Under the pieces are notes generated by a model. The model made no database searches, had not been told where the DNA came from, and was given only the letters and a program-made list of their open reading frames with translations. Positions 6,158 to 43,779 of a stretch of DNA of 43,779 nt are shown here, piece after piece (position 1 is the first letter of the stretch; every line of letters begins with the position of its first letter). Location: assembly GCA_025499625.1 (NCBI GenBank), contig JAFMVD010000050.1, positions 1 to 43,779 of the forward strand, read 5' to 3'. This DNA comes from Carboxylicivirga fragile. GTDB lineage: Bacteria; Bacteroidota; Bacteroidia; Bacteroidales; Marinilabiliaceae. Position numbers and translations under genes: made by a program.

Positions 6158-7081
6158 TTAATTTGCCGATGCATTCTCTATGTATTCTTTCGGACTCACA
6201 CCCACCTTCTTTTTGAACAGTCGAGAAAAATACTGCGGATATTCAAAGCCTAGCTTGTAGGCTGTTTCTGAAATAGAGGCATGGGGAGCCAGCAAAAGAT
6301 TCTTTGCTTCTTCAACTAAATACAAGTTAATTTGGTCAACAGCTGTTTTTCCTGTTTCAGCTTTAATGGTGTCGCGCATGTACCTATGACTCACACCTAA
6401 CTGGTTTGCCAACCATTCAACCGTTGGTATTCCTTTTTCTTCTAATTGATCCGATTCAAAATACACATCCAGTATTTCCTTAAAACGTGTAAAGAGTGCC
6501 TTATTAATGTCTTTTCGGTTCAGGAACTGACGCTTGTAAAAGCGGTCGGCATATTTTAGCAAGGCTTCCAAATGGGTTAGAATAATTTCCTTACTAAACT
6601 CATCCTGGTTGTTCTGATATTCTGCTTCGATGTTTTTTAAAATTGACTTTATGGTAAGCTCTTCCTTCGGACTTAGGTGCAACGCTTCATTTACATTGTA
6701 GTTGAAGAAATTATATTTCTTAATACGCTTCTGAATATCGAGCCCCCGAATAAAATCTTCGTGAAAAGCGATAAACCACGATTCGGAACTAATAACAATA
6801 TCTTTAACGGTATAGGTTTGATTGGGTGCCGAAAACAATAATGTTCCAGTTTCGCAATCGTACTTTGTGCGGCCATAAAGTATTTCGCCCGAAACAATGT
6901 TCTTTAAACTGATGATGTAAAACTGGTTGGTATAACTCACTTCTTTGTTTGAAGAAACACAATTTTGTACTTCATCAGCATTCATGCTTTTATGCCCGAT
7001 GCTAAAAAGAGGATTCTCAGGATCAGGTAAGTTCTGCGCCCGATTAAATTCCGTTATATTATTAAAAATGATAGCTTCCAT
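6158..7081 (-). CDS. AraC-family transcriptional regulator
   Basis: A 307-residue regulator. The first ~190 residues form a cupin-like sensing domain, as in the AraC_binding type (FYIISLKNIVSGE, TLLFSAPNQTY). The last ~100 residues are a two-helix-turn-helix AraC DNA-binding domain with LANQLGVSHRYMRDTIK, ISETAYKLGFEYPQYFSRLFKK and a GVSPKEYI ending. The ATG at 7081 is chosen because a longer reading frame from 7114 would overlap the end of the upstream gene in another frame and add no domain. It follows a frameshifted membrane-protein gene by about 10 bases and an SDR gene, so the three probably form one transcript. Regulators of this type often control a neighbouring oxidoreductase, here likely the SDR. 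Confidence 0.88.
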   Translation of the reverse strand: MEAIIFNNITEFNRAQNLPDPENPLFSIGHKSMNADEVQNCVSSNKEVSYTNQFYIISLKNIVSGEILYGRTKYDCETGTLLFSAPNQTYTVKDIVISSESWFIAFHEDFIRGLDIQKRIKKYNFFNYNVNEALHLSPKEELTIKSILKNIEAEYQNNQDEFSKEIILTHLEALLKYADRFYKRQFLNRKDINKALFTRFKEILDVYFESDQLEEKGIPTVEWLANQLGVSHRYMRDTIKAETGKTAVDQINLYLVEEAKNLLLAPHASISETAYKLGFEYPQYFSRLFKKKVGVSPKEYIENASAN

Positions 7082-7091
7082 TATTAGCAAT

Positions 7092-7599
7092 TTATTCTTG
7101 TTTCTCAGCTTCAATTAACTGCTTGTTGTAATTCTCAATTCTTGCAGAGGCGGTACCATCAATCAACAATATAACTACTAACATAGCAATGCTTGTTATC
7201 AAACCTGCCCGCCAACCCGAAGAGTTAACAAAGATTATTACAATGGCGCAAATGGCAATAATAATAGGAATAGCTGTAAAAACTATGTTTTTGTATTCTT
7301 TTTATTGTGGCATCGGCACGTTCTAACTCCGATTGAACAAAGGCTGGTGCATCGGCATGATAAGCTTTCTCAAATTGTGAAACTCTGGCTTTATTGGTAA
7401 AGAATAAGCCAAAGCCAATTATCATGAGCATAACACCAGCTACCAATGTGGGTATAATATAGGCTTTGGCCATGTCGGTTTTACCCAGTTGCCAAAAACC
7501 AATACTTGCGGCTACAAATAAAATTCCAAATACTATGAAAAAAGGTGTTGAAAACAATTCGGCTTTTGCCCAATCGCTTGCTGATTTTAGTATATCCAT
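7092..7599 (-). pseudogene. Small integral membrane protein gene with a frameshift
   Basis: The first ~95 codons encode two membrane spans (about residues 18-35 and 47-66) and a soluble helix ending in SELERADATIK. In that frame the protein then turns into low-quality sequence (HSFYSYSYYYC) and stops at 7225. Shifting one base at the five-T run 7299-7303 (five A on the coding strand) restores a natural continuation: EYKNIVFTAIPIII, a third and fourth membrane span, and a charged tail ending EAEKQE at a stop at 7092-7094. With one base fewer in the run the product would be 168 residues. I infer a single-base insertion, either a real mutation or a sequencing error in a homopolymer. The family is not recognised. 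It lies between the SDR and AraC genes in one likely transcript. Confidence 0.75.
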
Positions 7600-40084: not shown

Positions 40085-40175
40085 AATTACACTAGAGTGC
40101 AAAATTATTTAACACTATGATTGACAAAGTTAAATATTGTTTATAATTTGTGTGTGCATTATAAACCAATTTACC

Positions 40176-41009
40176 ATGTCGTCAAAATCAAACCTATCTA
40201 TTTCAGATCACCTTTTGAAAGGTGATGGCATCATTCCCTATTTATTAGAGCACACAAAAGGAGGAGAATTTCAATCTTCTTATCCTGATTCTGTCATCAT
40301 ACATTATACGGCAGGCGGCAGTGCTGAATCATCGGCTCGTCATTTACGAAATAAAGACGTTAAAGCATCGGCACATTTGGTTATTGGCCGCGCTGGAGAA
40401 ATATACCAGATAGTGCCCTTTAATTATCAGGCTTGGCATGCCGGTAAAAGCAAATATGGTTCGCGTGTTGGGTACAACAAGTTTTCCATAGGTATTGAAT
40501 TGGATAATGCCGGCGTATTAACCAAGGCAGGTACTGAATATGTATCATGGTTTGGTAAAAAATATCAGCAGAATGATGTACTTCAAGCGCGTCATCGCAA
40601 CGAACAGGATTTAAAATATTGGCACCTCTATACACCTGAGCAGATAGCGGCTTGCGAACGAGTTGTTAAGTTACTTATTGAAAATTACGGAATAAAGGAG
40701 ATATTAGGTCACGAAGAAATAGCACCGGGAAGAAAACAAGATCCTGGACCAGCATTTCCTTTGGATCGATTTAGAAATAGGCTTTTGTTCGAAGATAGAG
40801 CCGATGATGAAACACCCTTAAAAGGTAAAAACTATAAAGTTACAGCAAGTCAATTGAATATTAGGGAAGGTGCTGGCGGACAGTTCAAAAAGGTGGCTCA
40901 ACCTTTAAAAAAAGGTAGCGAGGTAACCATTCTGGAAGAGAAAGATGGCTGGTGTAAGGTAAAAACAACGATTACTGGTTGGGTTAGTAAAGGGCATCTA
41001 GATATTTAG
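40176..41009 (+). CDS. N-acetylmuramoyl-L-alanine amidase (Amidase_2) with SH3b domain
   Basis: A 277-residue peptidoglycan amidase. The catalytic domain (about 35-195) has zinc ligands His43 (VIIHYTAGG), His179 (LGHEEIAPG) and Asp189 (KQDPGPAF), and the active-site Lys187. The C-terminal SH3b-like domain (about 217-277) begins YKVTASQLNIREG and ends GWVSKGHL, for cell-wall binding. There is no signal peptide: the ATG at 40176 (MSSKSNLS) is preferred to a TTG thirteen codons upstream. Such leaderless amidases resemble phage endolysins or proteins released by a holin-like step. It leads a tight operon with the DUF5675, membrane and DUF4230 genes (4-bp gap to the next). Confidence 0.9.
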   Translation: MSSKSNLSISDHLLKGDGIIPYLLEHTKGGEFQSSYPDSVIIHYTAGGSAESSARHLRNKDVKASAHLVIGRAGEIYQIVPFNYQAWHAGKSKYGSRVGYNKFSIGIELDNAGVLTKAGTEYVSWFGKKYQQNDVLQARHRNEQDLKYWHLYTPEQIAACERVVKLLIENYGIKEILGHEEIAPGRKQDPGPAFPLDRFRNRLLFEDRADDETPLKGKNYKVTASQLNIREGAGGQFKKVAQPLKKGSEVTILEEKDGWCKVKTTITGWVSKGHLDI

Positions 41010-41013
41010 TCAT

Positions 41014-41763
41014 ATGCAACGATTTCTTTTGTTAATAGTAATTGCAGGTATCGTTTTCTTGCTGGTACTCTTTGTTAATCGACCCGATTTAATTGAAAAC
41101 ATCTGGATTTGGTTGGTGGGATTGGCGGGCAGCATCGTAAAATCCTTTCAATTAATAATCGACTTCTTTAAAGATCGATTTGGTAACGCGACAACTGACA
41201 CGGATCAGAACAAAAATGGAAATAAGAGTAATACATCTAATGGTCGTGAATCAAGTAAAACAGATGCGACCATTGAAGCTTTTAAGGGCACTACCATTAC
41301 CGTATTGCGTATTTCAGATGATGAGGAAACGACCATCGGTTTGTTGTACATTGATTCAAGCTTTTATTGTTATACACTCGAGGATACTTATAATGAGGTT
41401 AAAATAAAAGGGCAAACGCGCATACCTGCAGGTACCTATAATATTGATTTTCTGAGGCAGGAAACACCGCTTACTTTAAAGTACAGAGAAAGGTATCCCG
41501 ACTGGTTTAATTTTCACTTACACATTCAGAATGTACCAGGATTTACAGGTATTTATATTCATAGTGGCGGCAATCATCAGCATACCGAAGGGTGTTTGTT
41601 AGTCAGTAATAGTTTGTCTGTTGGAACTGATAATTCGTACTTAACCAATTCGAGAACAACCTTTAAGAACTTGTATAAATATTTGGAGGAGCGTTTGACT
41701 AATAAGCATAAGCTTAGAATTATTATACGAGATGAAAACTGGATCAAAGAACTAAATCATTAA
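41014..41763 (+). CDS. Membrane-tethered DUF5675 domain protein
   Basis: A 249-residue protein with one N-terminal membrane span (about 4-21), a short second hydrophobic stretch (about 30-50), and a low-complexity Asn/Asp/Ser/Lys-rich linker (58-85). A DUF5675 domain (about 92-245) follows, recognised by YCYTLEDTYNEVK, RIPAGTYNI and IYIHSGGNHQHTEGCLLVS. His183 and Cys194 in the last block are arranged somewhat like the His/Cys of YkuD L,D-transpeptidases, which suggests a peptidoglycan-linked role, but this is inference. The domain is also common in phages and in secretion-type clusters. Gap to the amidase gene is 4 bp, to the next gene 2 bp. Confidence 0.82.
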   Translation: MQRFLLLIVIAGIVFLLVLFVNRPDLIENIWIWLVGLAGSIVKSFQLIIDFFKDRFGNATTDTDQNKNGNKSNTSNGRESSKTDATIEAFKGTTITVLRISDDEETTIGLLYIDSSFYCYTLEDTYNEVKIKGQTRIPAGTYNIDFLRQETPLTLKYRERYPDWFNFHLHIQNVPGFTGIYIHSGGNHQHTEGCLLVSNSLSVGTDNSYLTNSRTTFKNLYKYLEERLTNKHKLRIIIRDENWIKELNH

Positions 41764-41765
41764 TC

Positions 41766-42563
41766 ATGGCTACTAAAGAAATCAACTATACCGATCAAAT
41801 TGCTAGCACTTTGCGAGAAAAGAAAAACTTAAATCGCCTTTTAGTTGGTGCAGTGCTTTTTCTTGAGCTTATCATTTTTATTGGTGTTGTGCTAACGGCA
41901 CGGGTCTATTATTGCGATGATACACAGCATTTCAAAGACATTTTCTACGTCATAGCATTGTCATTAATCTTAATTTGGTTTGGCATTTTTGTCGCTTATC
42001 TCACATGGGCTATCTACTTTTATAACATTAACCTTGGGCTTACAAATCAATCGTGGGCTGAGTTAAGACAACGTATAGCTGAATCGCCCGAACTGGAGCT
42101 GAAAGAACCAAGAGTGAATCCACACGCCAACGAAACTTTAGGCTTGCCTAAAGGCACCATTAGGGGGATGGTAGCAATCACTCTTTTAATTGGTGGTTTG
42201 TCCATGGCCATTGCCTCCTTAGGTTATGACTCAGAACTTAAACAAGATTCGTTTTTTATCGATCATTTCGACTTTTTTAAGACTGCTTTTTTAATGATGA
42301 TTGCCTTTTATTTTGGTAATAAATCATTGGAGCTTATTGGTTATAAAAGTTCTAAAGTGATTGGTGCAAATACCACCCAAGCTCAATCACAAAATGCAAC
42401 TGCTGGCAGTGAATCTGAGGTGCCGATGTCTACAGTTAGCAATGGTGCAAGCGGAATGAAAAATAATTTATTGAACGACGTATCTGGTGAAAGTAATATT
42501 GAGGATTCAGCTACTTCGCCAAAAGATCAGGAAGATTTTAATGTTGATAACGCACAAGGTTAA
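41766..42563 (+). CDS. Four-span membrane protein with GLPKGTIRGM motif
   Basis: A 265-residue protein. Membrane spans lie near residues 24-46, 60-85, 131-151 and 166-184. Between spans two and three is a cytoplasmic helix leading to ETLGLPKGTIRGMVAITLL. The fourth span ends AFYFGNKSLEL. The pair L-P-x-G-(T/S)-x-R and F-Y-F-G-(N/S) recurs in many membrane proteins of unknown role. The C-terminal ~75 residues are disordered and rich in Ser, Asn, Gln and Asp. The gene overlaps the DUF4230 gene by one base (TAATG, 42561-42565). No function is assigned. Confidence 0.75.
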   Translation: MATKEINYTDQIASTLREKKNLNRLLVGAVLFLELIIFIGVVLTARVYYCDDTQHFKDIFYVIALSLILIWFGIFVAYLTWAIYFYNINLGLTNQSWAELRQRIAESPELELKEPRVNPHANETLGLPKGTIRGMVAITLLIGGLSMAIASLGYDSELKQDSFFIDHFDFFKTAFLMMIAFYFGNKSLELIGYKSSKVIGANTTQAQSQNATAGSESEVPMSTVSNGASGMKNNLLNDVSGESNIEDSATSPKDQEDFNVDNAQG

Positions 42564-43180
42564 TGCTTCGATTTAAACAAATAGCGTTTGTGTTATTAGC
42601 AACAAGCATGTTGTTGGCTTGTAAGCGCGAAAAAAGGTGGTTGGTCATCAGTAAAATAAAAAGTACAGCTAAACTAGCCACAACACAAACCACGATTGAT
42701 AAAGTTGTGATTGGTAACAAGCAACGAAAAGCTTTTGGTTTGGTGCGTATAAGCAGTTCTGATTTTGTTGCATATTCCGAAGCAACTGTCTTAACAGGAA
42801 TTGATCTGACCAAACTCGATCGAAAAGACGTTGAAATTGATGGGGATGTGATAGAGCTTAAACTGCCTGCGGTTGAAGTATTAGATTTTAACTACCCTTT
42901 TGAGAAGTTTGAAATTGATCATCATCTTTCCAATAATAAATTCATGAGTACCATTGATGTGATTGATATGGAGTCGTTTTTCAGACAGGCTGAGAGTGAT
43001 ATTCGTGAGCATTTGAAATACATGGGAATTACAGAACAAACAGAGGAGAACACACGGAAAATGTTGGAAGGGCTCTTGAAAAACATGGGTTATAAGGAAA
43101 TTTATATAGAATTTAAGAATGATTCGACTGAACTAATTCCTAAAATAAACTGGGACAAATACCTTAACAGTAATGATTAG
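42563..43180 (+). CDS. DUF4230 domain lipoprotein
   Basis: A 205-residue protein with a lipoprotein signal (SMLLAC, Cys20) followed by a DUF4230-type domain: WLVISKIKSTAKLAT, an aromatic GLVRISSSDFVAYSEATVLTGID strand block, IELKLPAVEVLDFNYPFEKF, and a helical end with AESDIREHLKYMGITEQTEE. DUF4230 proteins are found in many bacteria at the envelope and have no known activity. It overlaps the next gene by 8 bases (ATGATTAG, 43173-43180), so the two are probably coupled in translation. Confidence 0.78.
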   Translation: MLRFKQIAFVLLATSMLLACKREKRWLVISKIKSTAKLATTQTTIDKVVIGNKQRKAFGLVRISSSDFVAYSEATVLTGIDLTKLDRKDVEIDGDVIELKLPAVEVLDFNYPFEKFEIDHHLSNNKFMSTIDVIDMESFFRQAESDIREHLKYMGITEQTEENTRKMLEGLLKNMGYKEIYIEFKNDSTELIPKINWDKYLNSND

Positions 43181-43748
43181 TTTATTCTCAAAAGGGTTTT
43201 CGTTTTTGCTTCAAGTAATACTTGTGGTGGCTGTGGTATTGCTGTTCTCGTGGTTCGACCCATTTGACCTGTTGGCACCAACTAAGACAAAACTAAAAAA
43301 TACACCTATACAGGTTGAAAGCATAAAGGAGATTGGGAAACTCATTACTGCTGAGTATTATGGCGAGGTCATTGCCTCATTGGGTGAGGTAGTGGATCAA
43401 GAAAATAAAAAAGATACCGAGCTTTTTAGCCTAGGAATTAAAGATGTACATGCTGAATTTACGGATTGTTTAGCGACTCTGTCTCTGCTAGATTTTAAAA
43501 ACAAGGGCGATAATTGTTATGAGGAATTTTTGAAGTTAAATACTTTTTTACACCGAAGTCCTTTGTTTGAGCGTTATTTATATTTCATCTTCGATAATAT
43601 AAGCGGTAGAACGTATAAAGTCTCCGAATTAAATCAGGAGCTCGGTTCAGGTAAAAAAGAAAGACTTTTCAGGCGATTACAGGATATGGAGTTGCTAAAT
43701 TTACACGGACGATTTTTTAGAGATATTAAGACCAAAATAATATCTTAG
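43173..43748 (+). CDS. Membrane-anchored protein with DUF4230-like N-terminal block
   Basis: A 191-residue protein with one membrane span (about 8-27) and a short proline-containing stretch, FDPFDLLAP. The next part, KNTPIQVESIKEIGKLITAEYYGEVIASL, resembles the N-terminal block of Bacteroidota DUF4230 proteins. The usual following beta-strand region is missing. Instead the C-terminal ~90 residues are helical and end in a winged-helix-like segment (YKVSELNQELGSGKKERLFRR, LNLHGRFF). It may be a shortened or re-domained DUF4230 paralogue of its neighbour. It overlaps the DUF4230 lipoprotein gene by 8 bp. Confidence 0.7.
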   Translation: MISLFSKGFSFLLQVILVVAVVLLFSWFDPFDLLAPTKTKLKNTPIQVESIKEIGKLITAEYYGEVIASLGEVVDQENKKDTELFSLGIKDVHAEFTDCLATLSLLDFKNKGDNCYEEFLKLNTFLHRSPLFERYLYFIFDNISGRTYKVSELNQELGSGKKERLFRRLQDMELLNLHGRFFRDIKTKIIS

Positions 43749-43753
43749 AAAAA

Positions 43754-43779
43754 TGAGTACACAGAAAAAGTATTACAGT
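43754..43779 (+). CDS. Start of the next operon gene (partial)
   Basis: An ATG at 43754, five bases after the previous stop codon, opens MSTQKKYYS and runs off the window edge. Position and spacing match the rest of the operon, so it is probably a real gene, but its product cannot be told. Confidence 0.4.

Follow-up and report, generated by a model that had tools for sequence, protein, structure and literature searches.

A candidate chromosomal wall-opening operon in Carboxylicivirga fragile and its relatives in other Bacteroidota

Results

The right-hand end of a 43,779-nucleotide stretch of Carboxylicivirga fragile DNA (contig JAFMVD010000050.1 of assembly GCA_025499625.1, forward strand, positions 1 to 43,779; hereafter the window) carries an operon for an endolysin-like amidase, a DUF5675 protein, a multi-transmembrane (multi-TM) protein, a DUF4230 lipoprotein and the first part of a large transmembrane (TM) protein with a DUF4230 half. 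The last three genes form a core that stands in the same order in 13 of 13 operons, those of the window and of 12 relatives, and each of these operons includes at least one peptidoglycan hydrolase, the type of which varies. By analogy with known systems we propose, at a little short of an even chance, that the operon is a Bacteroidota cassette, encoded on the chromosome, which opens the wall by phage-lysis logic, in the manner of a type 10 secretion system (T10SS) or a programmed-lysis module. No description of this operon was found in the portions of the literature covered by our search, and almost nothing in print was found on DUF4230 and DUF5675.

The five open-reading frames (ORFs) are consecutive and lie on the + strand. 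A 4-bp gap separates the amidase gene (40176..41009) from the DUF5675 gene (41014..41763), and 2 bp separate the latter from the multi-TM gene (41766..42563), which overlaps the DUF4230 lipoprotein gene (42563..43180) by 1 bp; the fifth ORF (43173-43748) overlaps the lipoprotein gene by 8 bp. These coordinates agree with a first-pass annotation of the window, which had described a tightly packed five-gene unit with the same gaps and overlaps.

The amidase, read from an ATG at 40176 with an alternative TTG start at 40137, combines an Amidase_2 domain (Pfam, 7.6e-30) with a C-terminal SH3_3 domain (8.3e-11). It matches a lysis amidase family in PHROGs (1.3e-38) and 54 phage records, with identity of at most 40.6% in the best 10 of the 54, and by eye it has no signal peptide. 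Its earlier description as a signal-less, endolysin-like enzyme with an SH3 domain therefore holds. An H...H...D pattern is also retained, and these residues would be the zinc ligands that the first-pass annotation had called intact. An enzyme without an export signal could instead be an AmpD-like recycler of peptidoglycan in the cytosol, with the remaining envelope genes unrelated to it, and the NCBIfam AmpD model does match. We consider this highly improbable: the match, at 102.4 bits, falls under the equivalog cut-off of 143, an SH3 domain is present, and relatives of the operon substitute a muramidase, an Amidase_3 or a PG-binding/CHAP-like enzyme.

The DUF5675 protein (Pfam DUF5675, 1.6e-27) consists of an N-terminal two-helix membrane segment, a linker and a domain with the predicted YkuD-type fold of an L,D-transpeptidase (LDT). 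His183 and Cys194 are invariant in all 11 proteins aligned. YkuD-type LDTs carry the motif HG(S/T)-X10-(S/T)XGC-hydrophobic-R, as given in PMC12729407. Judged against that motif, the two residues in DUF5675 are 11 apart, not 16, and in the window protein no Arg follows the Cys. DUF5675 thus shares a predicted fold and an invariant His and Cys with YkuD-type LDTs and Tlde1, and differs from them in its shorter His-Cys spacing, the lack of Arg after Cys and its two-helix membrane tether. One of the 11 proteins has a weak match to GTA_holin_3TM (E 0.0042), and 249 phage records match DUF5675. A second, short DUF5675 gene without a membrane segment is present in the same genome, on the minus strand of contig C113 (L075:1439-1918). 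It lies near a membrane-type ORF of 164 amino acids (aa), two scanned neighbours match no Pfam family, and the region is possibly a phage lysis region.

The multi-TM protein has no family match over cut-off in Pfam, NCBIfam, PHROG or PADLOC scans, and was characterised by alignment with its 12 relatives. It bears a loop motif, NPxxxETLGLPKGT(I/V)RG, together with a second motif, FFKTAFLMMIAFYFG, and in some relatives its C-terminal tail carries a muramidase, an Amidase_3 or both. By our own hydropathy scan, which is not a trained predictor, the number of TM segments is 4 or 6 if a weak TM4 is counted. Mean lysine plus arginine content across the 13 proteins is 7.4 in the loop between TM2 and TM3, 1.2 in the loop between TM3 and TM4 and 4.4 in the first 20 residues of the tail. 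From this distribution the loop before TM3 and the tail are predicted to lie inside, and the fused enzyme is hence predicted to be cytosolic.

The DUF4230 lipoprotein, with an LLAC lipobox recognised by eye, matches Pfam DUF4230 at 3.5e-27 (95.8 bits, against a gathering score of 27 for PF14014) and is 39-52% identical to its 12 relatives. A lipoprotein and a TM-anchored protein of the same family recall the anchoring of spanins, but show no sequence match or clear structural match to them. In several of the lipoproteins (e.g. L052, L054 and L055) the lipobox Cys is followed by K or Q and then acidic residues, which we take to resemble the surface-export signal of Bacteroidota lipoproteins. 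Elsewhere, two adjacent DUF4230 matches lie at G751:C1:242763-243945.

The relatives (L045-L056) were retrieved with the DUF4230 lipoprotein as query, and cores without it would be missed. All 12 were found in one scan of genome contigs, in records titled as Prolixibacteraceae, Aquimarina (2, including Aquimarina brevivitae), Marinoscillum, Mariniradius, Lunatibacter, Bacteroidales (2), Cytophagales, Flammeovirgaceae (2) and one Rickettsiales metagenome-assembled genome. On a tree of the core proteins the cassette of the last (L056) pairs as sister with the one from Marinoscillum (L047), which has similar neighbours, and its contig is probably a misbinned Bacteroidota contig. DUF5675 precedes the multi-TM gene in 12 of the 13 operons (11 by Pfam, L054 by eye), and none stands beside L050. 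A survey of genomes for this gene order, which the first-pass annotation had suggested, thus recovers the core in 12 other loci. The large TM and DUF4230 protein measures 483-747 aa in the relatives, and its gene in L051 includes a run of N.

The hydrolase is exchanged around this core. It is a separate Amidase_2 with SH3 in the window and L045 (Pfam); a separate PG_binding_1 protein (1.5e-15) with a weak CHAP match (17.7 bits, cut-off 26) in L050, apparently the same locus as L036; an Amidase_3 fused behind the multi-TM part in L046, L047, L048, L051 and L056; a muramidase fused to the multi-TM protein in L052, L053 and L049, apparently the same locus as L035; and both a muramidase and an Amidase_3, fused to the multi-TM protein, in L054 and L055. 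Each duplicated pair, recognised by matching lengths and genes, was counted once. The Amidase_3 motifs are intact in all seven fused copies. On a tree of the three core proteins, Amidase_3 appears at three places and muramidase at two.

The operon is sparsely distributed. The multi-TM protein occurs in 1 of 71 genomes of the family, the C. fragile genome itself, and matches 28 of 295 genomes of the order, with the long form only in C. fragile, G213 and G336, of which the latter two appear to be the Bacteroidales records L049 and L050. The lipoprotein profile matches 16 of 395 genomes of a phylum sample, with E <1e-20 only in C. fragile and G659. In G659 (L108, turned stretch 6175-7367) a DUF4230 lipoprotein occurs together with a TM-anchored partner but with no wall genes, which indicates that the pair is not specific to lysis. 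This pair bears on a non-lytic alternative, in which a tethered hydrolase and an LDT-like enzyme would work within an envelope-spanning DUF4230 scaffold, making local openings in the wall to allow growth or the assembly of another machine. Such a wall-remodelling complex would also fit the physical fusion of hydrolase to membrane protein, the lipoprotein with its TM partner and the LDT-like domain. We regard it as unlikely, though deserving of serious thought. A protein found in 1 of 71 family genomes is very patchy and hence does not belong to the core machinery of growth, an export signal is missing from the separate amidase, and the tail that holds the fused enzymes is predicted to be cytosolic.

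A shorter sister cassette was reached through weaker multi-TM matches, at 26 loci in 25 genomes. Its genes encode an amidase, a TM hairpin of ~140 aa with a coil, a secreted coiled-coil protein and a 3TM protein. The 3TM gene is present at all 26 loci, the hairpin at 24 (25 with a longer fetch) and the coil at 24; the amidase lies upstream on the same strand at 17 of the 26 in the short fetch and at 21 once longer fetches of four more are included. L021, where the 3TM gene has no such partners, is the exception. By profile comparison (hhalign), the multi-TM core has a homologue in the 3TM protein (99.3%, E 4e-20), and the membrane segment of DUF5675 has one in the hairpin (94.4%, E 9e-8). The short cassette therefore shares with the window operon an Amidase_2 with SH3, a homologous membrane hairpin and a PxGTxRG/AFYFG-type protein. 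It differs in that the loci read, two operons of which were scanned with Pfam, contain neither an LDT domain nor DUF4230 proteins, and in being commoner in the order, where the hairpin form occurs in 24 of 295 genomes (~8%). In L038, L039, L040, L041, L042 and L044 the region upstream of the short cassette's amidase encodes a lipoprotein of ~265 aa that has a GWSxDGKFAYIxEP-like motif; the two that were scanned have no Pfam match over cut-off.

The last gene of the window is most simply read, from the sequence, as interrupted by an insertion sequence (IS)-like element in the C. fragile genome. No Pfam family matches the fifth ORF over cut-off, but across 149 columns it shares 50% identity with the beginning of the 483-aa TM and DUF4230 protein of the closest relative, L045. 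Its stop, at 43748, falls inside an inserted element, and alignment with the 12 relatives assigns 43173..43686 to the N-terminal ~171 codons of the large protein. The window ends where the contig ends, and its last 93 bases (from ~43687) are repeated, next to differing flanks, at six more contig ends. A second contig, C77, starts with another repeat, which eight more contigs also carry no further than 46 bases from their start. Behind this repeat, at C77:46-1086, lies the coding sequence for the large protein's DUF4230 half (35.9 bits to PF14014). The same three bases, ATA, adjoin the element in the window and on C77. The matching ATA, the element end at 43687 and the two halves of the protein together point most simply to a single interrupted gene. 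The first-pass annotation had taken the fifth gene for a small intact protein of 191 aa, a misreading that arose from the insertion, and had counted two DUF4230-type proteins in the window; the DUF4230 half of the second sits on C77. Since its last gene carries this insertion, the copy of the operon in this genome may be inactive.

The repeat at the start of C77 represents the right end of the element, and its copy on C11 terminates in a transposase-like peptide of a type that would mark the element as IS3-like. The element, seen with its left end at 43687..43779 in the window (strand not assigned) and also at L074:1-94, has the same left end at seven contig ends and the same right end on nine contigs, at or near their start. 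This multi-copy element accounts for some of the breaks in the 140-contig assembly.

Upstream of the amidase gene is a stretch without a long ORF, preceded by a glyoxalase-family gene. Scanned against PHROGs, 10 proteins from the neighbourhood in the window and on C77 and 10 from that of the relatives yielded no phage structural family; the other neighbours were assessed by eye or Pfam. The families that these 20 proteins match are those of metabolism, regulation and stress, others of unknown function and, in L055, a transposase (gene rve, upstream of the operon there). The absence of visible phage structural genes, remarked on in the first-pass annotation, is thus borne out among the proteins scanned. 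That annotation had also named a known prophage, or a well-described secretion cluster beyond the edge, as grounds for abandoning the idea of an undescribed system, and neither is seen on C77. The phage-like amidase and the 249 phage records that match DUF5675 would suit a remnant of a prophage or phage satellite, but this origin is distinctly improbable given that no structural family appears among the 20 proteins, that the core membrane and DUF4230 proteins are absent from the phage and viral searches, and that the same core occurs in distant Bacteroidota.

An abortive-infection or competition module, which would lyse or weaken its own cell upon phage attack, is improbable as well. The patchy distribution and the lysis-type enzymes speak for it, as does a possible defence pair, RloB with an AbiEii-like AAA gene, ~5 kb downstream of the operon in 1 of the 12 loci (L045:16855-18869, minus strand). 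Against it, PADLOC has no match for the five window proteins, defence genes near the other loci not having been searched for, and no sensor is recognised.

Discussion

A bolder and more specific picture is also compatible with our data, and we hold it tentatively, at somewhat less than an even chance. The operon may encode an undescribed envelope machine of Bacteroidota, composed of a multi-TM membrane gate whose cytoplasmic tail bears exchangeable wall hydrolases, a tethered LDT-like enzyme and a DUF4230 bridge between the inner and outer membranes. It would then be a second, independently built secretion or lysis system of the holin/endolysin type, with a simpler sister in many genomes.

Given a separate amidase without a signal and a tail predicted to lie inside, the hydrolases are most simply thought of as held on the cytosolic side, an arrangement on which phage lysis and T10SS also rely. 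In the mechanism we envision, the hydrolases would either stay in the cytosol or be held by the multi-TM protein at the cytosolic face of the inner membrane. When a signal arrives, that protein and the membrane hairpin of DUF5675 could open or traverse the inner membrane in a holin-like manner. As the hydrolase cuts the wall, the LDT-like domain would edit or trim the stem peptides, and the DUF4230 lipoprotein and its inner-membrane partner could bridge the envelope much as a spanin pair does. The outcome may be the release or secretion of material, or the lysis of a subpopulation.

Phage lysis cassettes in Gram-negative hosts consist of an endolysin, a holin and an i- and o-spanin. The operon resembles these cassettes in its signal-less, endolysin-like amidase, its membrane protein, its lipoprotein, its TM-anchored envelope protein and its tight packing. 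Unlike them, it has no virion genes, and the phage and viral collections that were searched contain no relatives of its membrane and DUF4230 proteins.

T10SS provide a second comparison. As described in PMC13284979, these systems pair a holin with a signal-less amidase or muramidase, with spanins optional, and are named from Yersinia, Clostridioides, Serratia and Salmonella; the typhoid toxin system uses the LDT YcbB. With chiWXYZ, ChiH/ChiP and TtsA with YcbB (PMC13284979), the operon shares a chromosomal, signal-less wall hydrolase beside membrane proteins, an LDT-like domain where one T10SS has an LDT, and optional envelope proteins. By eye the window amidase is such a signal-less hydrolase, whereas in most relatives the enzyme is fused behind TM segments. 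The operon also differs from T10SS in having no recognised holin, spanin or cargo, in the frequent fusion of its hydrolase to the multi-TM protein, in its DUF5675 and DUF4230 families and in its Bacteroidota hosts.

Several observations weigh against a wall-opening cassette of this kind. TM4 of the multi-TM protein is weakly hydrophobic (mean Kyte-Doolittle value 0.61-0.85) and was missed by the hydropathy scan in 12 of 13 rows; if TM4 were dropped from the predicted topology, the tail would fall in the periplasm, with a change in the logic. Holin families have no match to the multi-TM protein in family scans of the window and relatives, and spanin families have none among the window proteins and scanned relatives. 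A hydrolase fused to a membrane protein departs from the usual endolysin arrangement. No cargo gene common to loci beyond close relatives was found by eye in the neighbourhoods. The small and large DUF4230 proteins, compared directly, give a probability of only 12.5%, yet both match the Pfam family. According to PMC13041782, a DUF4230 protein of S. mutans adjoins ribosome-biogenesis genes, which suggests no fixed link between the family and wall lysis. Finally, the multi-TM and DUF4230 proteins have no match in the phage records or viral contigs searched, apart from a weak PHROG match of the DUF4230 protein (E 0.0013). The first-pass idea of a device recruited from phage parts is thus supported for the endolysin-like amidase but is not supported for all of the components. 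Of the roles proposed with it, lysis, wall remodelling and secretion agree with a conserved core that is always accompanied by a wall hydrolase, while for immunity there is no PADLOC match.

If the proposed wall-opening function is correct, the operon would be a Bacteroidota counterpart of the known systems, assembled from other membrane families, in which the hydrolase is exchanged or fused while the core stays constant. Lysis logic would then have been domesticated more than once, and DUF4230 and DUF5675 would gain roles that can be tested.

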